A model generated the notes under the pieces. It ran no database searches and was not told the DNA's origin. It was given only the letters and a program-made list of their open reading frames with translations. From Verrucomicrobiia bacterium DG1235 (GTDB taxonomy: Bacteria > Verrucomicrobiota > Verrucomicrobiia > Opitutales > Opitutaceae), in assembly GCA_000155695.1 (NCBI GenBank), contig DS990593.1:102131-166130 (forward strand): a stretch of 64,000 nt of DNA. The letters run 5' to 3'. Shown piece after piece: positions 27,245-61,415 of this stretch (the first letter of the stretch is position 1; each line of letters opens with the position of its first letter). Position numbers and translations under genes: made by a program.

Positions 27245-28420
27245 TCTTTAGCCAGCGGAGCTGGACAGAAAATTGATGATGGAAAATTGAAGAGTGTGAG
27301 CACCGACGACTGATGAGTTGGATAGGAAATTGAAGATCGAAGATTGAAGAGGGTGGGCACGGGAAATTGTGATGTGTTTAGCCACTAAGGGCGCGAAGCT
27401 CGCTAGCTTGTTGTGGTGATGAACAATGATAGATTTACGATCTGTGATCGGTGGAGTTGAGCGCTACGTTCGAATTTCTTGACCACTAGATTAGCGAAAC
27501 GCCGCTGCTTGATGGAATGGCTTCGGTTGAAGTTGGATGAGTTGGAACTTGTTTCATGCGCATGGTGTTCTGCCCCTGCATAGGCGTAGCAAGAGTTATA
27601 GGCTTTTTTACGGTTGGTCTTGGTGAAACTTGAGACTTCTTAATGAGTTGAAAGCTCGATAGCTCAGATTATGCCATCAGTGCACAATGTGGAGCCCCTC
27701 AGGGAATCATTGCAACCCGTAACGTGTATCCCTGCAGGTGATGAGTGAATTCCTTATTTTTGGATAGGGGACGGGGGGAGAAGTAGTGAGTTGTGAGTGG
27801 TGAGGAGTAAATTGGGAATGGTGTGATCCTGCAGAGGGGGAAACCGCAAAGTACGCGGAGATCGCGAAGTTATTCTGCGCTTGGGGTAACCGCAGAGGGC
27901 GGGTAGGGATCCTGCTTTGGGGAATTTGACCGCGAAAGACGCTAAAGGGGAGAAGTAGTGAGTAGTGAGTGGTGAGTGGTGAATGGGGAATAGGGGTGGT
28001 GAATGGTGAAGAGTGAATTTAACGCTAAGGCCGCTAAGGGCTGGAAGGGATCGGATTGGTTTATCGCGACCAAGGTCGCTTCCCACAGAGATTGTGGTGA
28101 TGTCGCCTACGGCTCGGCACACGCGGGGTCTGGATTTTGTGCTCTGGTGTGCGAATTTGCTATTTGAGGTTATGATTTGGGATTTGTGTAGCGCGTGGGC
28201 GTAGAGTGTTTTTGCACGGTGTTGAGGGTGAGCGGGCGGGGTGAAAGGGCGGATTTTAACAAATTGTCTGATTCTGGAGTATATTGAATCAATTCCGCAA
28301 AGATCTGTGCGAGTAATGCCTAGTGCGATTGCGTAGGTTCAGCTCAGGCATGCGTGTGGTCGTTCATTTTAACGAGCTCATCTTCAGGGGGGCGTTTCGC
28401 GGGCGAAGTTTGGTCCCAAC
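27245..28420. repeat. Gene-free region with degenerate intergenic repeats
   Basis: No convincing gene is present in these 1176 bp. The right half contains short degenerate repeats that recur after the next gene. Examples are runs of GTGAGTGGTGA type near 27785-27802 and 27955-27982, a GTGATCCTGCA segment near 27823, and GACCGCGAAAGACGCTAAA near 27928. A CGCTAAGGCCGCTAAGGG segment lies near 28023. A 14-bp palindrome lies at 28066-28079. The left half has two copies of an AAATTGAAGA-like segment (about 27280 and 27327). The region must carry the promoter for the leftward block, but no convincing -35/-10 pair was recognised. Confidence 0.7.
28066..28079. repeat. REP-like palindrome GCGACCAAGGTCGC
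   Basis: A perfect 6-bp inverted repeat (GCGACC/GGTCGC) with a 2-bp spacer lies in the gene-free repeat region. Its shape is like the core of repetitive extragenic palindromes. Only one copy was recognised in this window, so its status as a dispersed repeat is inferred. Confidence 0.4.
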
Positions 28421-29905: not shown

Positions 29906-30133
29906 ATCCGGTAAGAGTAGTGAGTGGTAAGTGGTGAGTGGAGTGATCCTGCAACGGGGGGCTTTTTTGACCGCGAAAGGCGCTAAAGGGCGCGAGACTG
30001 AGCTTGTGTGATCCTGCAATGAGGTTCAGCCACTTCCGAGCCGAAGGGGACATGACCGCAAGAGCCCAAGAGGCACCATAAGGCACGAAAAGATCTTGCA
30101 GCGTGTTTTTTGATTTGGGATTTGGGATCTGGC
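29906..30133. repeat. Intergenic repeats matching those upstream of the FN3 gene
   Basis: This 228-bp spacer repeats motifs found at 27780-28180. There is a GTAGTGAGTGGT run at about 29917, GTGATCCTGCA segments near 29942 and 30008, GACCGCGAAAGGCGCTAAAG near 29969, and a TGATTTGGGATTTGGG end near 30110. The two repeat blocks therefore bracket the single gene at 28421-29905. No gene or clear terminator is seen. Confidence 0.65.
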
Positions 30134-33100
30134 TTAGTCGGTCCAGGTGCAGAGGGTGTTGATGTAATCTGCGGAGCCGTCTTGGACCCAGCTGTCGAGT
30201 TGGGCTTGGTCTTTGAGCTGTTGGCCGCGTTGTCTGGGCACGATCGAGAAATTGGATTCGAAATCGGGGAGAGTGGTCATGTCTCCCCAGAGCTTTTCGA
30301 ACTGGCTGACGGGGTAGATGTCTTCCTGCCCTTCGCCCCAGCGTTTTTTGACGTCTTTGAGGGTGAGGTAGGTGGGAAGTCGCAGAGCGATTTTGCGGAC
30401 GGCTGCTTCCACGGCTTTGACGTTTTTGATGCTTTCCCGATCGAGGCCAAAGAATTGGAGCAGCTTGTCTACGTTAATCCAGCTGGTGTTGGTATTGTAG
30501 TAGGTGAGCTTGAACTCGTCGCTCTCGTGGGGGAGCGCGAGGCCCTCGATGAGGCGGATGCGTCCGTCGATTTTGGCGAGTCCTCCGCCGCGGTCTTCGA
30601 GACGTTTGGACATGACTTCGAAGGATAGGGTGGCGTTTGACTGGATGTGCCATCCGAGCAGCTCGGCGTCGATGGAGGCTCCGAGGGTGTCGATGTTGTG
30701 GGCGAGAAGGTATTTGATCTGTGGCTGCTGCTCGAGGATGCGGGCGAGGGTGCCGTTTTTGATCAAGTTGGGGATTTCGTACCAGTGGCCGACGGGATGA
30801 AGGCACTGGGAGGGAAGGTTGTCCGTGTAGTCGGCGGCCTCGCCGAAGTTTTTTGCCCAATCAACGAGGGCGGCTCGGACGCTCTCTTGCATCTTTTGTT
30901 TCTGCTCGTCGAGTTTTTGCTGGGCAATTTCCTCCCAAGCGAAGCGCAGGTCTCGCTCGGTGGGGATGAGGCGCAGTCCGATGGATTTGCCGGAGGAGAG
31001 GTAGGCGGAATCCCGAAGTCGATCTGAGTGGCTGCGTTCGAGGTGCTCGAGAATGGGTTGGTGGGTGAGGTAGCTGGTTGTGAATACGTGGGGTATGCGA
31101 CTTTCGAACGAGCGCTCGGCGCAGTGGGTTTTGGCGAGGTGAATATCGATGAAGTTTCGGTGCCTGCCTTGATAGGAGAAGAAGGGGTGCAGGGATTTGA
31201 CGACGCCCGCCCCTTGGGTCCAGCGGCTGCCAACGCCGGCGGCGAATGTGACGACTGCGACCTCGCCCTGTCTGATCGCATTTTGGCCGATCTGCTCGAA
31301 ATCCGCGTTTTTGTCTCTTGTGGCGTCGTAGAGCTCGTTTCGGCCGACATCGCTGATGGTCGCCGAGGAAGCGACTCGGTTCATGGCGAGACCGATGCGG
31401 CCGGCGAGGAGCTCGGAGCGAATCTGCTCGTGCTGTTCACGGTCGAAGCCGTTCTCGTGGAGCAGGGCTTCCAGGTTGTTATTGTCGTCCGTCTCTTGTT
31501 GGATTTCCGGAAGGAGGCGGCCGATAAGGTCTGCCGCGGAGTAGCGTTTTGGCTGGTTTGGCTGGATGGCGTTCGCGTATTGGCGAAGGTCGCCGCGCTG
31601 GGCGTCGGTCATGTCCTGAGGGTTGGAGCGCAGGGCCGAGGGAATGGTGAGCTGGTAGAATGCTTCCGGGAAGATGGCGGAGTCTCCGGCGAGAATCGTT
31701 CCGGTTGATCCCGATTCGTTGATTCTAAAGTCGTAGACGACGGGATCCATGGCGAAGGGCAGGGCGTTTTCGTACTGATGCTTTCGTTCGAGCATCTTTT
31801 CGGAGAGGAAGGCTTGGCCTTTCGTTTTGAATGATGGATCGAAGATGAATCCCATGCCACCGCCGGACATGCCTCCTAGCATCCAGAATCCCCAGAAGTC
31901 TTTGCCGAACTCCGTTTTGACATCGGCGATCAAGGTTTCCGTATAGATATTGCTCACCCAAGGAATGATGTCGTGCAGAGGGCCAAAGAAATTTTCGGTA
32001 AGCCGCTTGCCCAGTTCTTTGATCTCGCCGTTTTTTAGGTTTTCGACGATAGCGTCGATGGTATCCAAAGCTTGATTACGAGCTTTCCATTCCTTGGATC
32101 CGCGGGTGAGGTATTTCTCGGTGACCATCTCGAGGATGGGGCCGACGTTTTGCGCCATGCCGCCGTGCACGAGAACTAAGCTGTCCTGAAGCTTTTTTCG
32201 AGCGTCTTCGTTGACAATTTCTTTGCCGAGCAAGGTGTGTCTTGGGAGAAGGCGTCCGCGACTGGAGGCGTATTCAGAATCTCCTACATTTGCCTTTTCG
32301 CCTTCGATAAGCTTGATGCCTGGCCAGACTCCGCCCGAATCCTGCCAGCCGCCCCCTGAGCCGCCGAGCCATTCGCCGAGGATGGCGCGGGCGGCCACGA
32401 TGCGTCGCTCAGTCTCGTTGAGAGGACCGTCGATGGAAGCGGTTTGACCGGTCGCTCGCATGCAGACGGATATCAATGCGCCCAATAGGTTGGTGGATAC
32501 GGCCAGCCGCGAACCCTTTGGGATGCGGTTTACGTTGCTGACGATCTCCAGTCCTTTTCCTTCTCCAATAATGCTTTCGAATACGCTTGAGAGCTTTTGC
32601 CGAGAGCCTTCAAGCCCAGGAGGTACCAGGCCGGATGCGATGACTGCAGCCTTAAGCAGTCCGAGGTAGTCGCGGGCAAAGTCGAATACTTCGTCGACCA
32701 TTGTCAGTTCGGTCGTCGTGCCCAGATCGACGCTGCAGAGACGGAGTATTGGTTCTTCAATGACACGCAGATAGGCTTCGATGGGCGGGCGGATTTCATT
32801 GTCGCGTCCGTGTACTCCGAGATCGACGGATACGTTCAGAACGCGGGCTCCCTCAGGGTAGTCCATTCCGAGGAAAAAGATGTCGCTCCAGGCGCAGTGG
32901 GTAAGGTCCATGCGAACGGCGGTCTGCTCCTTTAGGATGGGGTAGACTTTGTTTGATCCCGATTTCTCAAGCAGCGATTTGCGAAGCTTCAAGGGATGAT
33001 CGAGGTGGTGTCCCATGCGAAAGATCCAGGTATTGCCGGCAGTTGAGCGCACGGTTTGGCGGACTTGATCTGCCAAGGTTTGAAACGCCAGACTGTGGTA

Positions 33101-33466
33101 GGCATGGGCGAGGGAGCTGGAAAGCGTGTCGCTTGCTCCTGAGGTTTTCATCTCGCTCAGCAGGGCTTGAATCGCTTCCTCGAATCGGCGATTCAGAATG
33201 AGTTCGTGAGCTTGGTGGGAGAGTCGGGCTTGATCTGGATAGCCGTTTCTTGCGGGTAGTTGGAACCTGTGGATTCCGTGCAAAAAAAAGAGGGCGCGGA
33301 CGCGATTGTAGAGGCTGGGCTCTTGCTGTCTGTAAGCTTCCAGTTGGGCGGCTTCGGAAAGAAGGTTTTCGATGCTGAGGGCTTCGCAAAGCGAATCCAG
33401 CGAGCGATTGCGAAGAGCTGCGTCCTCGGAAGTGATCGTGGCGAGGAAAGGACTGGAGGCGTTCAT
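30134..33466 (-). CDS. Fusion of fucokinase-like GHMP sugar kinase and UDPGP-type sugar-1-phosphate uridylyltransferase
   Basis: This is a 1110-residue fusion. A helical leader covers residues 1-180. The GHMP kinase part (about 185-560) has AVRMDLTHCAWSD (183-195), GSRLAVSTNLLGAL (318-331), a fucokinase-type loop GGSGGGWQDSGGVWPG (368-383) and a third motif GGMSGGGMGFIF (531-542). After a linker (about 600-730), a UDPGP domain (735-1110) shows VTFAAGVGSRWTQGAGVVKS (739-758), LHPVGHWYEIPNL (889-901), AHNIDTLGASID (922-933), RLEDRGGGLAKIDG (955-968) and TYYNTNTSWIN (988-998). Together these predict phosphorylation of a free sugar at C1 and conversion to a UDP-sugar in one chain. Domain order is the reverse of FKP, and the second domain is of the UDPGP rather than the GDP-fucose family. 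The substrate is unknown. Confidence 0.82.
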   Translation of the reverse strand: MNASSPFLATITSEDAALRNRSLDSLCEALSIENLLSEAAQLEAYRQQEPSLYNRVRALFFLHGIHRFQLPARNGYPDQARLSHQAHELILNRRFEEAIQALLSEMKTSGASDTLSSSLAHAYHSLAFQTLADQVRQTVRSTAGNTWIFRMGHHLDHPLKLRKSLLEKSGSNKVYPILKEQTAVRMDLTHCAWSDIFFLGMDYPEGARVLNVSVDLGVHGRDNEIRPPIEAYLRVIEEPILRLCSVDLGTTTELTMVDEVFDFARDYLGLLKAAVIASGLVPPGLEGSRQKLSSVFESIIGEGKGLEIVSNVNRIPKGSRLAVSTNLLGALISVCMRATGQTASIDGPLNETERRIVAARAILGEWLGGSGGGWQDSGGVWPGIKLIEGEKANVGDSEYASSRGRLLPRHTLLGKEIVNEDARKKLQDSLVLVHGGMAQNVGPILEMVTEKYLTRGSKEWKARNQALDTIDAIVENLKNGEIKELGKRLTENFFGPLHDIIPWVSNIYTETLIADVKTEFGKDFWGFWMLGGMSGGGMGFIFDPSFKTKGQAFLSEKMLERKHQYENALPFAMDPVVYDFRINESGSTGTILAGDSAIFPEAFYQLTIPSALRSNPQDMTDAQRGDLRQYANAIQPNQPKRYSAADLIGRLLPEIQQETDDNNNLEALLHENGFDREQHEQIRSELLAGRIGLAMNRVASSATISDVGRNELYDATRDKNADFEQIGQNAIRQGEVAVVTFAAGVGSRWTQGAGVVKSLHPFFSYQGRHRNFIDIHLAKTHCAERSFESRIPHVFTTSYLTHQPILEHLERSHSDRLRDSAYLSSGKSIGLRLIPTERDLRFAWEEIAQQKLDEQKQKMQESVRAALVDWAKNFGEAADYTDNLPSQCLHPVGHWYEIPNLIKNGTLARILEQQPQIKYLLAHNIDTLGASIDAELLGWHIQSNATLSFEVMSKRLEDRGGGLAKIDGRIRLIEGLALPHESDEFKLTYYNTNTSWINVDKLLQFFGLDRESIKNVKAVEAAVRKIALRLPTYLTLKDVKKRWGEGQEDIYPVSQFEKLWGDMTTLPDFESNFSIVPRQRGQQLKDQAQLDSWVQDGSADYINTLCTWTD

Positions 33467-33481
33467 CTTGAGCTTGGAGGG

Positions 33482-34327
33482 CTAAGCGTGAGGCTTGCTA
33501 GCTAGCAATTCGAGGATTCCGGTGACGACTCGGTCGCGGTCCTTGCCCGAAAATGAGAGAGCGAGTTGGGAAAACAGCAGCCCGTAGTCGGATCCGATAT
33601 CGTAGCGGCTTCCCGAAACCTCCAATGCGAGGAGCTTTTCGCGTTGGGACAGTAGATTGAGCGCGGTGGAGAGGCTCCTTCCCTCGGGAGTGGGAAGGGC
33701 GGTCGTTTTTTCCAGGATATCGTAAATGGAAGGTTTTAAGACGTGTATGCCGAAGAAGCAGAGATAGAAACCCGCTCGTAGGCCCGGAACGGTGAGCTCC
33801 AGCTCGGCCTGGGTGGGGCTCGGTTTTTCGATGACTCGCTCGATTTGGTAGACGCTTTCTTGGCGGTCAACGAGGCGACCTCCAACGGCTCCGAAAGAAG
33901 AGATTTGGCTCTCCCTGGTCGCCTGCACGCCAGAGACGGAGGCGTTTGCCCGCTCGGCCGTTTCGACCACTTGTTTGGCGCAACTAAGGCCGCTATCGGA
34001 AACGCATAGATGATCGCCCACGAGGTGCAGAAACGCGTGATCACCGGTGAAGCCTTTGCCTAGTTTTATGGCCTGCGCGTAACCCGATGGTTCGGCCTGC
34101 TCGATGAATTGTATTCGATTTGCGAATTCACCAGCAGCGTTCAGGTAGCTTTCCTGCGAGTTCGGACAAATGATAAGGCAAACTTCTTCGATCCCGGTGG
34201 AAAAGGTCTCTTCCAATACGACTTCCAAGGCTGAACGTTTCCTGCCGTTTTGGTCGATGAGGGTTTGGAGTGGCAGGCTTCGTTGGTTGGGATCTGCAAG
34301 CGTGATGAGGGCTTTGGTGACTTTCAT
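33482..34327 (-). CDS. GalU-like nucleotidyltransferase with degenerate nucleotide-binding loop
   Basis: The 281-residue protein follows the GalU/UGP fold for most of its length. It has [17 protein letters not shown] (74-90), [11 protein letters not shown] (101-111), a [13 protein letters not shown] segment, a GRSLSTALN segment and [13 protein letters not shown]. The N-terminal signature that normally reads AGxGTRxxPxTK is replaced by [16 protein letters not shown] (10-25). This lacks the glycine-rich loop, the GTR threonine and the PK lysine. Catalysis as a UDP-glucose pyrophosphorylase is therefore doubtful. It lies 15 bp upstream of the kinase-pyrophosphorylase fusion, so it may be a regulatory or scaffold subunit of that enzyme, or an altered transferase. 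Confidence 0.72.
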
Positions 34328-34593: not shown

Positions 34594-34682
<89 letters not shown>

Positions 34683-34846: not shown

Positions 34847-37057
34847 CTAGCTTGTCCAGCTTAGGTCGGTTTTGGTGAAGGGGAGGGTGCGGATGCGTTT
34901 GCCGGTGGCGGCGTAAATTGCATTGCTTATGGCTGGAGTCGTGGGCGGGAAGGCGGGCTCGCCGAGTCCGGTGGGCGGGTTGTCGGTTTGGTCGAAATGG
35001 ACCTCGAGCTTGGGTGATTGAGCGATGCGGAGCAGCGGAGAGTCGTCGAAGTTACCTTGGCGGACTCGGCCGTTCTCGATGGTGATTTCTTGATTCCAGG
35101 CGGAGCTAAGGGCGTCGAGCATGGAGCCTTGGACTTGGTTTTCGGCGCCGGAGAGGTTGACGATGGGACCGACGTCCACGCCTGCGATGAGGCTGTTGAC
35201 GGTGAGGGAACCGTTTTGCGTTACGGTGACCTCGGCGACGACGGCGACGTAGCCCATGTGGCTGAAGTGGAAGGCGATGCCTTGGCCTTGGCCTTTTGGC
35301 AGCTTTTTGCCCCAATCGGCCTTTTCGGCGGCGAGGCGGAGCACGCCTTTCATGCGGCCGGCGTTGTAGGGAACGCCTCGTCCGGCGGGCTCGAGGGAGC
35401 GGTCGGGGCCGAGGATTTCGAGTCGGAATTCGAGGGGATCGCGTCCGGCCTTCTCGGCGAGCTCGTCGACGAAGCTTTGGACCGCCCAGGCGATGGCGCA
35501 GCTGCCGGGAGCTCTCCACCAGCCCATGGGGACGTTGCTGGGCAGGATGGTTTGGGTGAGGCGGGCGTTGTCGATAAAGCGGACCGGGAACTCGTCGGAG
35601 CTGATGCCTGCCCCGTGTCCGGTTTGCTCGGTGGAGTTGAGTCCGAGGGTGATGAAGTGGTCGGACCAGGCGGCGAGTTTTCCGTCGTCGCCGACGGCTC
35701 CTTTAAAGTGGTGCCAGCCGGCGGCGCGGTAGTAGTCGTGCCGCATGTCTTGCTCGCGGGTCCAGGTGACTTTTACGGGGCGCCCTTCGAGTCGGTGGGC
35801 GATGGCGGCAGCTTCGCAGATGAAGTCGGCCATGAGTCGACGGCCGAAGCCTCCGCCGATCCGTGTCATGTGAACGATGACTTTGTCGTCAGCGAGCTTG
35901 AAGAGGTTTTTGACCTGTCCGTGTCCGGAGCCCGGGTTTTGGGAGGGGCTCCAGATTTCCATGACACCGTCTTTGAAGAGGGCGGTGGTGTTTTGCGGCT
36001 CGAGGTTGGTATGCGAAAGGTAGGGGTAGTCGTAGCTGGCTTCGACCACGTGTGGCGCGTTTTTGAATACGTTTTCTACGTCTCCATCCGAGCGGAGTTG
36101 CTTGCCTTGCTCGGAGGCTAGGCTTTGGGCTTTTTCCTGGTAGAGGAAGGAGTTTTGCTCGGCGGTGTCGCTTTGTTCCCAGAGGACTTGCAGGCTTTGT
36201 TGAGCCTTGAAGGCGGTCCAGGTGTCGTGGGCGACGATGGCGACGCCAGGCTGGAGTCCGAAGCGGTCGTCGGTGCCTTCGATGATGAAGGCGTCGACGA
36301 CGCCGGTCATGCGTTTGATGGTATCCAGATTCGCGGTACGGACTTTATCGCCAAAGGTTGGGGAGCGAACGAAGGAGGCGTAGAGAAGGCCTTCGTGCTG
36401 TTGGTCGATTCCGAAGAGGGGACCTCCGGTGACGATGGCGTGGTTGTCTACTCCGCCGATGCGGCGTCCGAGGAGCTTAAAGTTTTTGGGATCCTTAAGG
36501 GTGACCGAGTCGGGATCGGGGGCTTCCAGTTTGGCGGCGATGTCGACGAGGTCTTTGTAGGCTAGCTTCTTCTTGGATTTCGTGTGTTTGACGAAGCCTT
36601 GATCGGCTTGGCATTCTTCGACGGGCACGCTCCATTTTTGGGCGGCCGCTTGTTCTAGCATAGTGCGGCCGACGGCTCCGACCTTGCGGAAGTTGTGGTA
36701 GTGGCCAGGAGTGGCTCCGCTGCCGCCGGCGCCTTGCCAGCCCTGGAGGCCTTGTACGTAGCCGACTTGTTCGACGGTGACGTTTTCCCATGGCACTTCG
36801 AGCTCCTCGGCGATGATCATAGGAAGGGAGGTCTTGATGCCTTGGCCGATCTCGGGATTTTTCGAGATGAGGGTTACGAGTCCGTCGCTGGCGATCTTGA
36901 TATAGAAATTTGGAGCGAAGACGGAGGAGCCTTTGGCGGCGGCGATAGCTCTAGAGCTCGGGAAAAGGGCGCTAAGGAGGAGTCCGCCGCCGGCGAGGGC
37001 GCTGGCTTTGACGAAGTCGCGGCGTGCGATGCGGGAGAGTGTGCTTGATTGTGTCAT
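34847..37057 (-). CDS. iorB: Molybdopterin-binding large subunit, isoquinoline 1-oxidoreductase beta-like (IorB)
   Basis: The start at 37057 gives a 736-residue protein with a Tat signal: SRIARRDFVKASALAGG, then hydrophobic LLLSALF and a cut near SRAIAA. A longer open frame upstream overlaps the small-subunit gene and is not used. The body matches xanthine-dehydrogenase-family molybdopterin-cytosine-dinucleotide subunits of the IorB/aldehyde-oxidase type, e.g. LGRRIGGVDNHAIVTGG, VHMTRIGGGFGRRLMADF, MGWWRAPGSCAIAWAVQSF and the late PPTGLGEPAFPPTTPAI with the catalytic-glutamate GLGEP motif. Exported through Tat and paired with the [2Fe-2S] subunit, it would hydroxylate an aromatic or aldehyde substrate in the periplasm. 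The substrate is unknown. Confidence 0.88.
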   Translation of the reverse strand: MTQSSTLSRIARRDFVKASALAGGGLLLSALFPSSRAIAAAKGSSVFAPNFYIKIASDGLVTLISKNPEIGQGIKTSLPMIIAEELEVPWENVTVEQVGYVQGLQGWQGAGGSGATPGHYHNFRKVGAVGRTMLEQAAAQKWSVPVEECQADQGFVKHTKSKKKLAYKDLVDIAAKLEAPDPDSVTLKDPKNFKLLGRRIGGVDNHAIVTGGPLFGIDQQHEGLLYASFVRSPTFGDKVRTANLDTIKRMTGVVDAFIIEGTDDRFGLQPGVAIVAHDTWTAFKAQQSLQVLWEQSDTAEQNSFLYQEKAQSLASEQGKQLRSDGDVENVFKNAPHVVEASYDYPYLSHTNLEPQNTTALFKDGVMEIWSPSQNPGSGHGQVKNLFKLADDKVIVHMTRIGGGFGRRLMADFICEAAAIAHRLEGRPVKVTWTREQDMRHDYYRAAGWHHFKGAVGDDGKLAAWSDHFITLGLNSTEQTGHGAGISSDEFPVRFIDNARLTQTILPSNVPMGWWRAPGSCAIAWAVQSFVDELAEKAGRDPLEFRLEILGPDRSLEPAGRGVPYNAGRMKGVLRLAAEKADWGKKLPKGQGQGIAFHFSHMGYVAVVAEVTVTQNGSLTVNSLIAGVDVGPIVNLSGAENQVQGSMLDALSSAWNQEITIENGRVRQGNFDDSPLLRIAQSPKLEVHFDQTDNPPTGLGEPAFPPTTPAISNAIYAATGKRIRTLPFTKTDLSWTS

Positions 37058-37074
37058 GGCGCGTGGTCTTCGGG

Positions 37075-37533
37075 TTATTTGCTGGCTGCGGTGTGGATCG
37101 CTTCGCGGATGCGGGTGTAGGTGGCACAGCGGCAGAGATTGCCGGACATGGCGGCGTCGATGTCCGCGTCGCTGGGCTTGGAGTTGCTGGCGAGAAGAGC
37201 GGTGGCGCTCATAATTTGGCCGGCTTGGCAGTATCCACATTGTGGAACGTCGTGCTCCACCCAGGCTTCCTGGACTGCGGTGAGCTTTCCTTTTTTGGCG
37301 ATGCCTTCTATGGTGGTGATTTTTCCGGTGGCGGCGGCTCCGACCGGTAGTTGGCAGGAACGCATGGCGACGCCGTTGAGGTGTATGGTGCAAGCGCCGC
37401 AGAGGCCTTTACCGCAGCCGTATTTCGTGCCTACGAGGCCAAGGTGGTCGCGGAGGACCCAGAGAAGGGGCGTATCATCCGATACGTCTACGACCTGCTT
37501 CTGGCCGTTGATGTCGAGGGTGTATAGACTCAT
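37075..37533 (-). CDS. iorA: [2Fe-2S] small subunit, isoquinoline 1-oxidoreductase alpha-like (IorA)
   Basis: The ATG at 37533 gives 152 residues, the usual length; a longer frame to 37656 adds an unrelated leader. Both iron-sulfur sites are present: plant-ferredoxin-type [16 protein letters not shown] with a later cysteine in RSCQLPVG, and the C-terminal [10 protein letters not shown] and [11 protein letters not shown]. It passes electrons from the molybdenum centre of the partner protein, whose gene starts 17 bp downstream. It has no signal peptide, so export presumably occurs bound to the Tat-bearing large subunit. Confidence 0.92.
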
Positions 37534-37664
37534 GTGTCGGGTAATTGGGGGGTGTTGCGGTTTTTGCCAGAGAATGCTGAGCTTGCGTCGGGTCGCAATG
37601 AGGAAGGCATGCTTTCGTACGAGAAACGCATCTGGCGGCGCTTTGCTTTCGGACAAAGTGAAGA

Positions 37665-57355: not shown

Positions 57356-60300
57356 TTAACCGCAAGGGCAATCTTCATCGATAAGGTCGACTACCACGAG
57401 GAAGGGCTGGTCATGATCTGACGAGTCCTCGGGATCAACGTACAGGCCGACAAGATCTCCAGCTTGTGCTTCAAATCCCTCGCCGTTCGCTATTGCAGCG
57501 TTGTAGATTTCCAGAGCGTTGGAAGTCGTGCCAGCGCCATCAGCTACGAACAATCCGTTTGTGTATCCAAACGAGTCGAGAGATGCACCGTCTGTTAGAG
57601 CCCAAATTGCTCCCTGGATTTCTGCGTCCGTATAGTTGGTGCCATTATTGTCGCCGTTGTCAGTCCCTTCGAAGTCTTGGTTCACGATCCAGTTGATTAG
57701 ATCCAAGTTTTCGACTGCTGTTTCGCCGTTTGTACCAACTCCTCCGAAACCACCTACGCCTTGTAGCGCGTTGGTTGGTAATTCGCCATCTGCTGCGATG
57801 TAAAGCTCTGCATTGATCTCAGGAGCGTCATCAATAGGAGTTCCCGCTTGTCCAAAAAGGACTGTGTCAAAAACAGAAAGACAATACGCGTTTTCGTAGA
57901 TGCCGTCGATACTTGCGTCGTTTGCTCCAGTTATTTGGACAGTGAAAGCATCTGAAGATGTTCCAGCTGGCTCATTCTCGTCAATAATCTGAAAGGTAAT
58001 CGGACCTGTTGGGAGCGTTGCCTTAACTTTATCGAGCGTATCGTTGGCTCCGCAGAAGGTGACTTCTACGTTGGCTGTGGCGATATTGCCGAATGCGTCA
58101 GAAACGGTGTATTCCATCGTTTCGACTGCTTGCTCGCCTGCCATGAGATCTGCGAAAGCGGTTTCACCGTCGAAGCAAAGCTGTCCGTTGACGAGGCTTA
58201 CGAGAACTCCGCTAGAGAGTTCAACAGGAGCTCCACCTTCTGTTAGGGCGAGCCCATCGATTGCAAGAACCGTAATGCTGCCGGAAGCTGTGTCGTTCGC
58301 AGCGACGTCGACTTTAACTTCCTCGTTGTAGCAGCCTTTTCCTTCGTCGTCTTCTAGTGACGGTAGAATTTCGACCACGCCTGAGTCGACGTCTTCGGTT
58401 TCCTGTCCGGCGTTGACGGTGACGGACGCGGTCTTGCCGTTTACGGCGTCGACGACGTCTGAGTCTATGGTGTCGTCGTTTCCTGCGTCGGCTGCGACGA
58501 ACTGCTTGTTCTCTGCGGCTGAGTCTTCGAACATGACGGAGTATTCGCCGGCTACGAGGTTGTCGAAGCGGTAGGTGCCGTCGGCGAGGGTGTTCGTGGT
58601 GGCGACGGTGTTGCCCGCGGCGTCGAGTAGAGTGACGAGCTTGCCTTCAACTGCGACGTCGCCTGTGTCGTCGATGTCGTTGCGGTTCTCGTCGCAGAAG
58701 TAGCGTCCTGAGAGGGATCCGAGTTCCTCGACCACGCCTGCGTCGACGTCCTTGGTCTCCTGTCCTGCGTTTACGGTGACGGATGCGGTCTTGCCGTTTG
58801 CGGCGTCTACGACGTCTGAGTCTATGGTGTCGTCGTTTCCTGCGTCGGCTGCGACGAACTGCTTTTTCTCTGCGGCCGAGTCTTCGAACATGACGGAGTA
58901 TTCGCTGGCTACGAGGTCGTCGAAGCGGTAGGTTCCGTCGGCGAGTGTGTTCGTGGTGGCGACGGTGTTGCCCGCGGCGTCGAGTAGAGTGACGAGCTTG
59001 CCTTCAACTGCGACGTCGCCTGCGTCGTCGATGTCGTTGCGGTTCTCGTCGCAGAAGTAGCGTCCTGAGAGGGATCCGAGTTCCTCGACCACGCCTGCGT
59101 CGACGTCCTTGGTCTCCTGTCCTGCGTTTACGGTGACGGATGCGGTCTTGCCGTTTGCGGCGTCTACGACGTCTGAGTCTATGGTGTCGTCGTTTCCTGC
59201 GTCGGCTGCGACGAACTGCTTTTTCTCTGCGGCCGAGTCTTCGAACATGACGGAGTAATCGCCGGCTATGAGGTTGTCGAAGCGGTAGGTGCCGTCGGCG
59301 AGTGTGTTCGTGGTGGCGACGGTGTTGCCCGCGGCGTCGAGTAGAGTGACGAGCTTTCCTTCAACTGCGACGTCCCCTGTGTCGTCGATGTCGTTGCGGT
59401 TCTCGTCGCAGAAGTAGCGTCCTGAGAGGGATCCGAGTTCCTCGACCACGCCTGCGTCGACGTCCTTGGTTTCCTGTCCGGCGTTGACGGTGACGGACGC
59501 GGTCTTGCCGTTTGCGGCGTCGACGACGTCTGAGTCGATGGTGTCGTCGTTACCGGCGTCGGCTGCGACGAACTCCTTTTTCTCTGCGGCTGAGTCCTCG
59601 AACATGACGGAGTATTCGCCGGCTACGAGGTTGTCGAAGCGGTAGGTTCCGTCGGCGAGTGTGTTCGTGGTGGCGACGGTGTTTCCGTCGGAATCGAGAA
59701 GTGTGACCAGCTTTCCGGCGACTGCGACATCTCCTGTGTCGTCGATGTCGTTTCGGTTCTCGTCGCAGAAGTAGCGACCGGAGAGGGAGCCTGGAATTGG
59801 ATCGCCAGGGGTGTAGCAAAGATCGTCGATTGCTCCGGAGCCAGGCAGGTTGACGACCATTTTCGCTACGCCGGAGGCGTCGAGCTCTACGAGAGCTTGG
59901 CCGTTGTTGCCGGTCGCTGGCATGGCGACTGTCTTAATGAGATTTCCGCCGGCGTCGTACAAATCGATGGTGCCGGTGGATTCCTCGATATCGAGTACGC
60001 GGATGGAGTCGAGCTCAGCAAGCTTGTCGAATTCGAAGGTGATAGTGCCTCCTCCTGCGTTGTCGTCAGGATCGCTGGCGTCGCCATCTTCCGAGATGAT
60101 CAGTACTTTGCCGAGACCGTTGTAAGAGAGGTCGCTGTCGCCGCCTGTGGTGTTGTTGGTATCGAAAACCATCGCTGCGTTTTCGCCGGAGGTATCGCCG
60201 GCGCGAGTAGCGGTGATCGTGACGCCTTCGAACTGATCTGAGATGGTGGCCCCGGTCTGGAGTTCATTGAATCTTACGCAAACGTCGTCTCCTTCGCATC

Positions 60301-61183
60301 CTTCGGTTGGCTTGAGTTCGATTTTGTCGATGCGGACGTATTCGCCGTTGTCCTTCCATGCGACGAGCTTGATTTCGGCGCCGGCTGGAATGTCGAGGTT
60401 TTCGATGGTGAATTCGCTGAAGCTGCCGTCGTTTGAGCCTCCGCCGTCGGACTGGCGATCGAGCATGACGGTTTCAACCAAAACGCCGTCAACGAACACT
60501 TTGATCTTGGACACGCCGTCCGTTTCGTCCTGGGCAAAGATTGAGAGGTTGTAGGAACCTGTCTCGCCATTGAAGTTTGTTTTCAGTCCTCCGTCGTGGC
60601 CGCAGTCGAGCCGGACGAGTTCGCCGCCGGAGGCTTGGGAGCCGCTCTCGACTGTGAAACCGCCGAAGCGAACCATGTCTTCAGCTTCGATGACGATGCA
60701 ATCGCTAGATGGCGGTGGTGGAGGAGGAGTCTTTTCGCCAGCGTCGAGGCACTTGTAGTCGACCCAGTCACCTTTGACGTTGCAGCAGCTGCCTACAGTG
60801 AGCTGAGCGCCAGCTGGGGGAGTTCCGTAGCCGTGACCGGTGTAGAAAGTGAAGAAGTCCTGATTGGAGCCTTCCTGCTCGATTTCGATTAGGATGTAAC
60901 AGTTTCCGTATTGGTCGGTTACGCGGAAATAACTCTCGGCGTAGATCTGACCCCCGTTTCCAACTTCGTTTCCGTCGTTGTCGATTTGAGCTCTCTGGCC
61001 GTAGCGGTCGTTGGCGTTCTCGTTTCTGCATGAATCGCCCGAGAGTGATCCGTCATTGTCTTTGACGGTGATGCATGTGGTTGCCGATGCCGGCATTTCA
61101 AAACGATCGCCTCTGCTCAGGTTTCCGTCGTTTGCGAGGTCAGCTTCCGTAAAAGCGGTGAATTCGTATTTTCTGTAGCTCAT
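57356..61183 (-). CDS. Large repeat-containing adhesin, probable type I secretion substrate
   Basis: The ATG at 61183 (MSYRKYEFTAFTEADL) gives 1275 residues; an upstream TTG at 61276 is less likely. No signal peptide is present. In order there are: a Cys-containing N-terminal region (1-160), a Pro-rich spacer with PPPPPPSSD, a CBM6-like beta domain starting IEAEDMVRFGGFTVES, another beta domain with CVRFNELQTGATI and four nearly identical SdrD-B/Cna-B-like repeats of 119 residues (SLSGRYFCDENRNDIDD to VDAGVVEELG). A VCBS/cadherin-like stretch (TVSDAFGNIATANVEVTF) and a C-terminal region ending DEDCPCG follow. The protein is acidic, rich in Asp and Asn, and suited to calcium binding. The lack of an N-terminal signal and the nearby TolC and ABC exporter genes suggest type I secretion from a C-terminal signal. 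Confidence 0.82.
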   Translation of the reverse strand: MSYRKYEFTAFTEADLANDGNLSRGDRFEMPASATTCITVKDNDGSLSGDSCRNENANDRYGQRAQIDNDGNEVGNGGQIYAESYFRVTDQYGNCYILIEIEQEGSNQDFFTFYTGHGYGTPPAGAQLTVGSCCNVKGDWVDYKCLDAGEKTPPPPPPSSDCIVIEAEDMVRFGGFTVESGSQASGGELVRLDCGHDGGLKTNFNGETGSYNLSIFAQDETDGVSKIKVFVDGVLVETVMLDRQSDGGGSNDGSFSEFTIENLDIPAGAEIKLVAWKDNGEYVRIDKIELKPTEGCEGDDVCVRFNELQTGATISDQFEGVTITATRAGDTSGENAAMVFDTNNTTGGDSDLSYNGLGKVLIISEDGDASDPDDNAGGGTITFEFDKLAELDSIRVLDIEESTGTIDLYDAGGNLIKTVAMPATGNNGQALVELDASGVAKMVVNLPGSGAIDDLCYTPGDPIPGSLSGRYFCDENRNDIDDTGDVAVAGKLVTLLDSDGNTVATTNTLADGTYRFDNLVAGEYSVMFEDSAAEKKEFVAADAGNDDTIDSDVVDAANGKTASVTVNAGQETKDVDAGVVEELGSLSGRYFCDENRNDIDDTGDVAVEGKLVTLLDAAGNTVATTNTLADGTYRFDNLIAGDYSVMFEDSAAEKKQFVAADAGNDDTIDSDVVDAANGKTASVTVNAGQETKDVDAGVVEELGSLSGRYFCDENRNDIDDAGDVAVEGKLVTLLDAAGNTVATTNTLADGTYRFDDLVASEYSVMFEDSAAEKKQFVAADAGNDDTIDSDVVDAANGKTASVTVNAGQETKDVDAGVVEELGSLSGRYFCDENRNDIDDTGDVAVEGKLVTLLDAAGNTVATTNTLADGTYRFDNLVAGEYSVMFEDSAAENKQFVAADAGNDDTIDSDVVDAVNGKTASVTVNAGQETEDVDSGVVEILPSLEDDEGKGCYNEEVKVDVAANDTASGSITVLAIDGLALTEGGAPVELSSGVLVSLVNGQLCFDGETAFADLMAGEQAVETMEYTVSDAFGNIATANVEVTFCGANDTLDKVKATLPTGPITFQIIDENEPAGTSSDAFTVQITGANDASIDGIYENAYCLSVFDTVLFGQAGTPIDDAPEINAELYIAADGELPTNALQGVGGFGGVGTNGETAVENLDLINWIVNQDFEGTDNGDNNGTNYTDAEIQGAIWALTDGASLDSFGYTNGLFVADGAGTTSNALEIYNAAIANGEGFEAQAGDLVGLYVDPEDSSDHDQPFLVVVDLIDEDCPCG
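58361..59788 (-). repeat. Four tandem 357-bp repeats in the adhesin gene
   Basis: Four head-to-tail copies lie at 59432-59788, 59075-59431, 58718-59074 and 58361-58717, each exactly 357 bp (119 codons). They encode one SdrD-B-like domain each. Differences are few: for instance the first copy has VAGKL and LLDSDGN where the others have VEGKL and LLDAAGN, and the last ends DVDSGVVEILP. Long identical DNA blocks remain between copies 2, 3 and 4, pointing to recent duplication or gene conversion. Copy number may vary between strains. Confidence 0.93.
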
Positions 61184-61415
61184 GAAGAGAAGGAGTAGAT
61201 GTTGCGCTGAATAGGCTTTGTGTAAAAAAAGCTTAAAGAGGAGTTCTATCGATCCAATTTGAGCCGGTCTTTGCAACCCTTAACATAAGTAGAGATACGA
61301 GATTGGCACACAATCAGGCTTAACCTTACTCTGACAGTGAGTTTCTAGTAGGCTTGAGCGCCTAAGAATGACGTAGGAGCGACTTCCCGACGGGGTTTTG
61401 CCCCCGAGTTTATGG

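Follow-up and report, generated by a model that had tools for sequence, protein, structure and literature searches.

Can a single bacterial polypeptide take a free sugar all the way to a nucleotide sugar of the uridine diphosphate (UDP) type? The question is raised by a gene pair of Verrucomicrobiia bacterium DG1235, located in a stretch of 64,000 nucleotides of contig DS990593.1 that was analysed as a whole (the window). The longer gene codes for a fusion protein in which an FKP-type GHMP sugar kinase domain precedes a UDPGP-type pyrophosphorylase domain, and the shorter one, upstream in the reading direction, codes for a GalU-like protein. We consider it probable that the pair provides a one-chain route from a free sugar to a UDP-sugar, and that the GalU-like subunit, itself weak in catalysis, would sense the product. 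An earlier annotation of the same DNA (the original prediction) had reported a frame of 1110 residues, the motifs GGSGGGWQDSGG at residues 368-379 and GGMSGGGMGF at residues 531-540, and a GalU-like neighbour separated from that frame by a spacer of 15 nucleotides, all of which were confirmed. The pair is organized as follows.

30134..33466, minus strand: fusion gene, 1110 amino acids, with a helical N-terminus, an FKP-type GHMP kinase, a helical linker and a UDPGP-type pyrophosphorylase
32969..33466, minus strand: residues 1-166, N-terminal region, predicted as all-helical (AlphaFold2 secondary structure) and conserved in the family
31691..32938, minus strand: residues 177-592, GHMP kinase domain, from the residue match to FKP (roles from the available text of PMC11982464)
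31271..31690, minus strand: residues 593-732, linker, mostly helical in the model, weakly conserved in the alignment, with partly low confidence at 653-662
30137..31267, minus strand: residues 734-1110, UDPGP-type pyrophosphorylase domain, from Pfam, PDB and profile-profile matches and the alignment
33482..34327, minus strand: GalU-like partner, 281 amino acids, with a GalU fold that lacks both a normal G-loop and the Lys-Glu segment

The kinase domain

The N-terminal half of the fusion was recognized as a relative of FKP, the fucokinase/GDP-fucose pyrophosphorylase. Residues 180-488 matched the NCBIfam profile PRK13412 (FKP) with an E-value of 2e-16 and 58.7 bits, the cut-off being 721; the match covered profile positions 612-886 of 974 only, leaving the N-terminal GDP-fucose pyrophosphorylase domain of FKP unmatched. 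A sequence search of the PDB retrieved the FKP chains 9iip, 5yys and 9iit, and in a profile-profile comparison with six rows of FKP the alignment covered residues 177-586 with an E-value of 3e-16.

Conservation was evaluated on the best 80 of at least 572 relatives from a scan of named genomes, which are 55-73% identical to the window fusion over the best segment, a conservation that rules out a chance frame. The family alignment consisted of 79 rows, the window and 78 named loci, L066 (frame problem) and L121 (incomplete) having been dropped. FKP residues were mapped by the PDB alignment numbering and the FKP profile-profile alignment. Roles in the FKP kinase have been assigned to Asp762 (the base), Arg592, Ser719 (on the metal), Ser720 and Glu751, and contacts to fucose to Trp599, Asp601, Thr602 and Gln761 (available text of PMC11982464). 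Residues R185, W193, D195, S324, E365, Q375 and D376 of the fusion correspond to FKP R592, W599, D601, S719, E751, Q761 and D762 and are identical to them in all 79 rows, while Ser720 is replaced by Thr325 throughout. The ATP loop reads IPKGSRLAVST, compared with IPAGSGLGTSS in FKP, and its GSRLAVST part is again common to every row. The profile matches and the conserved catalytic residues, together with the structural comparison described below, thus support the GHMP kinase domain that had been proposed for this half.

The pyrophosphorylase domain

The C-terminal half matched Pfam UDPGP (E 5e-16, 58.8 bits against a gathering cut-off of 22), and a PDB search with it returned UDP-glucose pyrophosphorylases (UGPases) of yeast, plant, fungal and human origin. 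Residues 734-1092 aligned to bacterial UGPases (ten rows) in the profile-profile comparison with an E-value of 1.4e-13. The G-loop, GH, NxD and late VPRxR...K residues of the UDPGP family are all present; G744, K757, G893-H894, N924, D926 and K1085, which we take to be the catalytically important ones, line up with UGPase residues and are invariant in 79 of 79 rows. The alignment stops near the end of the fusion, so that UGPase positions beyond 371 of 470, approximately the last 100 residues, have no counterpart. Pfam score, profile match and invariant residues all agree with the UDPGP-type domain of the original prediction.

Each protein was also modelled singly. The AlphaFold2 model of the fusion had a mean predicted local distance difference test (pLDDT) of 86 and a predicted template modelling (TM) score of 0.86, and the top PDB matches returned by Foldseek were full-length FKP, the FKP kinase part and UGP/UAP structures, with target TM values of 0.81 for the FKP kinase 9iip and about 0.5-0.6 for the UGP/UAP structures. 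The partner model (pLDDT 95.7) showed a GalU fold, with YngB and GalU structures at a TM of about 0.75. The predicted folds are therefore a kinase and a UDPGP fold in the fusion and a GalU fold in the partner, as anticipated.

Association of the fusion with a GalU-like gene

It had been asked whether the GalU-like gene always accompanies the fusion, and co-occurrence turned out to be near-constant. Among 286 sampled genomes of the host class, 69 carry the fusion whole or nearly so, 67 the GalU-like gene and 66 both; the only genome with the GalU-like gene alone has a fusion fragment alongside it at a contig end. Fusion fragments occur in two further genomes (G054 and G242), not counted among the 69. 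Of the 80 named loci, 76 show a GalU-like gene on the strand of the fusion and upstream of it, at a distance of about 1.2 kb in one of them (L078). Three of the four loci without it hold just 2, 259 and 989 bases upstream, and the fourth holds 3311. In 30 loci of the class sample, the window included, the two genes adjoin in 25; the GalU-like gene is elsewhere in the genome for L008, L009, L013 and L028, and none was found for L022.

The spacing, calculated with start codons chosen by script, was measurable in 73 pairs, 15 of which overlap by 4 nucleotides, while 50 are separated by 1-49, five by 61-200 and three by more than 200 nucleotides. Across 74 rows, the pairwise identities of the fusion are correlated with those of the partner (Spearman 0.68), a value that shows little since no control gene was included. 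The GalU-like gene is a near-obligate partner of the fusion.

The GalU-like partner

Against TIGR01099 (GalU) the partner scored 83.6 bits, with a cut-off of 326.8, over profile positions 95-259 of 261. Among the matches listed, pair-type partners enter this profile at position 92-96, and high-scoring GalU proteins at 1-3. The partner alignment comprised 74 rows, with L112 and L125 (incomplete), L083 (short start) and the class-sample partner proteins left outside it. The first G-loop glycine (YngB Gly14) is Gly in 49 of these rows and Asp in the window copy, and the second is kept in 5. The position which we take to be the second metal aspartate is Asp in 47 rows and Asn in 27, and the equivalent of YngB Asp134 is His in all 74.

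In YngB, Gln105 and Gly110 bind uridine, Asp133 binds Mg, Gly172 and Glu191 bind the sugar and Lys192 binds the diphosphate, with Lys28-Glu29 as further uridine-binding residues (available part of PMC7961091). By pairwise mapping, the residues for uridine, Mg, sugar and diphosphate are kept in 74 of 74 partner rows, and partner Q77, G82, D105, G146, E167 and K168 are invariant; the segment with Lys28-Glu29 is missing from every row. The description of this protein as a "loop-less" GalU holds for that segment and, in nearly all rows, for the second glycine, but not for the first, which most copies retain. As judged from these residues, the partner would be a UDP-sugar binder with poor catalysis.

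Distribution and coexisting enzymes

A search for the same domain order across Verrucomicrobiota, which had been suggested as a check, showed that it is widespread in the host class and extends to other phyla. The nearest relative among the best 80 belongs to Pelagicoccus (73%). Other carriers are Opitutaceae, Akkermansiaceae and other Verrucomicrobiota, planctomycetes (Rhodopirellula, Stieleria, K23_9) and Chloroflexota, as well as a small number of bins labelled as Armatimonadota, Bacteroidota and others; the phylum assignment of a metagenome bin may be in error. In the phylum of planctomycete K23_9, the fusion was found in 8 of 149 genomes. Phyla cluster in a FastTree tree of the 79 rows, with 9 label changes against a shuffle mean of 26.8. 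The plasmid collection returned one record, a Hymenobacter volaticus plasmid (L179 10996-15247), with the pair in the same order, an interrupted fusion frame and a GalU-like protein whose start is more GalU-like and contains a Lys. A viral origin was considered as well, and one scan of viral contigs confirmed no relative.

Clustering of open reading frames in the 80 loci gave no family besides the pair in more than 10 loci; because frames were chosen greedily, the fusion itself was overlooked in 6 loci and the GalU-like gene in a larger number, and weak links may likewise have gone unnoticed. In a Pfam scan of 110 of the 141 picked neighbours, no family had more than 3 members. The 31 unscanned neighbours include ones of L082, L088 and L094, where near relatives have phosphoglycerate kinase; this family is therefore undercounted in the Pfam scan, while the clustering places it in 7 loci.

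FKP was found over its cut-off in 9 of the 69 fusion genomes and a kinase-part match in 8 more, a total of 17 of 69 counted by eye. The idea that the fusion simply replaces FKP was rejected on the basis of this coexistence, which also speaks against a product that is simply the GDP-fucose of FKP. FKP-like kinase matches were also noted in open frames of 2354 residues (G081:C1:2490729-2492501) and 2204 residues (G015:C24:723421-724950), possibly larger fusions.

Comparison with known systems

FKP of Bacteroides fragilis likewise carries a GHMP kinase and a nucleotidyltransferase on one chain, and its mapped kinase residues are largely the same (available text of PMC11982464 and PMC12732313). 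In FKP, however, the pyrophosphorylase comes first and the kinase last, and its pyrophosphorylase belongs to a different family, with a beta-helix, and uses GTP, whereas in the window fusion the kinase is followed by a UDPGP-type domain. The opposite order and the different family, both part of the original prediction, are supported. We know of no GalU-like partner of FKP.

The zebrafish glucuronokinase/putative pyrophosphorylase GKUP also leads from a free sugar to a UDP-sugar on one chain. It differs in its 619 residues, in its first domain, a nucleotidyltransferase resembling bacterial ones of GT-A fold, and in its kinase, a glucuronokinase; its pyrophosphorylase activity was barely detectable (available text of PMC3938481). 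UDP-glucose and UDP-sugar pyrophosphorylases of the UDPGP family resemble the C-terminal half of the fusion, but they stand alone and have a further C-terminal stretch, whereas the window domain is shorter and fused behind a kinase. For the partner, the closest parallel is GMPPB/GMPPA, in which a pyrophosphorylase is regulated by a non-catalytic, product-binding relative (available part of PMC11228364), a role that is proposed here for the GalU-like protein. GMPPA and GMPPB are paralogues, whereas the UDPGP half and the GalU-like partner represent two nucleotidyltransferase families.

A kinase-pyrophosphorylase fusion is thus already known, and the present arrangement is a new variation. It was not found in the open-licence literature searched, where FKP and GKUP are the nearest fused enzymes, in agreement with the earlier statement that no such enzyme had been described, although a description elsewhere is possible. 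A term search of the main text of the 2025 paper on the FKP family (PMC12732313, the part available) returned no occurrence of UDP, Verrucomicrobi- or Planctomycet-.

Proposed mechanism and alternative explanations

From the domains and their residues we infer two activities, the order of the steps, a complex and a sensing role. In the first step, the GHMP domain would transfer phosphate from ATP to the anomeric position of a free sugar, with Asp376 as the putative base, Arg185 and Ser324/Mg handling the phosphate and Trp193, Asp195 and Gln375 gripping the sugar. The UDPGP domain of the same chain would then convert the sugar-1-phosphate and UTP into UDP-sugar and pyrophosphate. Finally, the GalU-like subunit would bind the UDP-sugar and adjust the activity of the enzyme, in the way that GMPPA regulates GMPPB: it keeps the residues for uridine, Mg, sugar and diphosphate, and has lost the UTP-holding Lys-Glu segment and, for the most part, the G-loop, which also holds UTP, a combination from which product binding would be expected. 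As a guess, a fucose-like sugar (L-fucose, L-galactose or D-arabinose) may be ranked first for the kinase step, because the Trp, Asp, Gln and Asp of fucokinase are kept in the pocket; the original prediction had given L-arabinose, galactose, glucuronate or a rarer sugar as examples. A bolder version, which we regard as improbable, would be an ancient two-subunit enzyme making an undescribed L-galacto-type UDP-sugar (e.g. UDP-L-fucose), policed by a GalU-family pseudoenzyme acting as product sensor.

Several observations weigh against the one-chain route with a sensing subunit. On the kinase side, no Pfam GHMP match at E<1 was obtained for the first half of the fusion, the equivalent of the fucose-contacting Thr602 is Ile196 in 79 of 79 rows, and two glycines of the FKP ATP loop are replaced by Arg and Ala throughout the 79 rows, at a place where the model is also unreliable (residues 319-321, pLDDT below 50). 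Since the loop is invariant despite the lost glycines, we read it as changed but used, rather than decayed. The heptokinase WcbL, with a target TM of 0.82, is on a par with FKP by this measure. UTP as the nucleotide is presumed from UDPGP family membership, the sensor role is modelled on GMPPA/GMPPB by analogy, and no conserved neighbour in the loci examined names the sugar. On the partner side, three fusion genomes (G048, G211 and G283) gave no GalU-like gene and G242, with a C-terminal fusion fragment, gave no pair-type GalU-like match. The Mg aspartate D105 and the second G-loop glycine of five rows may leave room for catalysis, as may the distant Hymenobacter plasmid copy, outside the alignment, which retains the Lys-Glu segment with one Lys; the loss of the segment thus belongs to the main partner family, and not necessarily to its root.

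In a somewhat unlikely alternative, both fusion domains work, and the GalU-like protein either is catalytic as well, acting for example on a different sugar-1-phosphate, or has a structural role, taking the place of the C-terminal domain that the UDPGP half has lost. The invariance of D105, E167 and K168, the longer Lys-bearing loop of the Hymenobacter copy, the end of the UDPGP half before the last 100 or so UGPase residues and the tendency of GalU-type enzymes to form oligomers (YngB crystallized as a dimer; available text of PMC7961091) are in its favour. The absence of the Lys-Glu segment from the whole partner alignment, the poorly kept G-loop glycines and the Asp/Asn variation at the presumed second metal position argue against it.

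The main rival to the one-chain route is a plain UDP-glucose pyrophosphorylase; its GHMP domain would then be regulatory or a dead kinase, and the GalU-like protein would be a remnant subunit. We hold this to be rather improbable. With thresholds set by the analyst (strong GalU at least 240 bits, strong UGPase at least 270 bits), 29 of the 69 fusion genomes show no GalU that is strong or mid-scoring, no strong UGPase and no mid-scoring second UDPGP protein, and 12 genomes searched, that of the window included, gave no match at the GalU cut-off. Weaker GalU relatives may however serve in the 29 genomes, and the cut-off is strict, being passed by just 5 of 14 control genomes. Moreover, in 31 of the 69 the fusion coexists with a strong UGPase or with a GalU that is strong or mid-scoring, and a simple replacement of GalU/UGPase is thereby weakened. 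The unusual ATP loop would suit a dead kinase, but all the mapped catalytic and sugar-contact residues except Thr602 are kept in the 79 rows, a conservation that a dead domain would not need.

A third alternative, quite unlikely, is that the substrate of the GHMP half is phosphorylated or unusual, like those of heptokinases, and that the unit belongs to a polysaccharide pathway rather than to free-sugar salvage: the retrieval of WcbL and a polysaccharide gene cluster in the window point that way, but the profile match is to FKP, with the GGGWQD and Trp-x-Asp residues, FKP ranks above WcbL by Foldseek E-value, and none of the neighbour families is shared by more than a few other loci.

Other features of the window

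The polysaccharide cluster (1577-27244) contains several glycosyltransferases, NeuB, two pyruvyl transferases, an ABC transporter, a cytidylyltransferase joined to a HAD-type domain, a Wzz-like chain-length protein, a FemAB-like protein and two proteins of 306 and 436 residues without a Pfam match. It was dropped as an explanation of the gene pair because it does not recur in other loci. A tRNA-Ser (TGA) is encoded on the plus strand at 34594-34681, directly upstream of the pair. Intergenic repeats resembling GTGAGTGGTGAGTGG at 27775-27991 and 29915-29960 are part of a longer scattered repeat, with 7 matches at up to 2 mismatches against 0.21 expected. A molybdopterin-binding oxidoreductase with a 2Fe-2S subunit (34847-37656) adjoins TonB and ExbB genes, and a protein of 1306 residues with repeated SdrD B-like domains (57356-61276) lies beside an outer-membrane efflux protein.

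Significance

One-chain enzymes leading from a sugar to a nucleotide sugar are wanted for glycan synthesis, and the known bacterial one, FKP, makes GDP-fucose. If its role is as proposed, the GalU-like protein, a near-obligate partner, would clearly exemplify control across family lines, in which a pseudoenzyme of one nucleotidyltransferase family acts on an enzyme of another. Through the gene pair, free sugars could be activated in planctomycetes, verrucomicrobia and Chloroflexota by a route that is widespread and, as far as the searches went, undescribed; the pair also hints at the presence in these groups of a UDP-sugar so far unreported from them.

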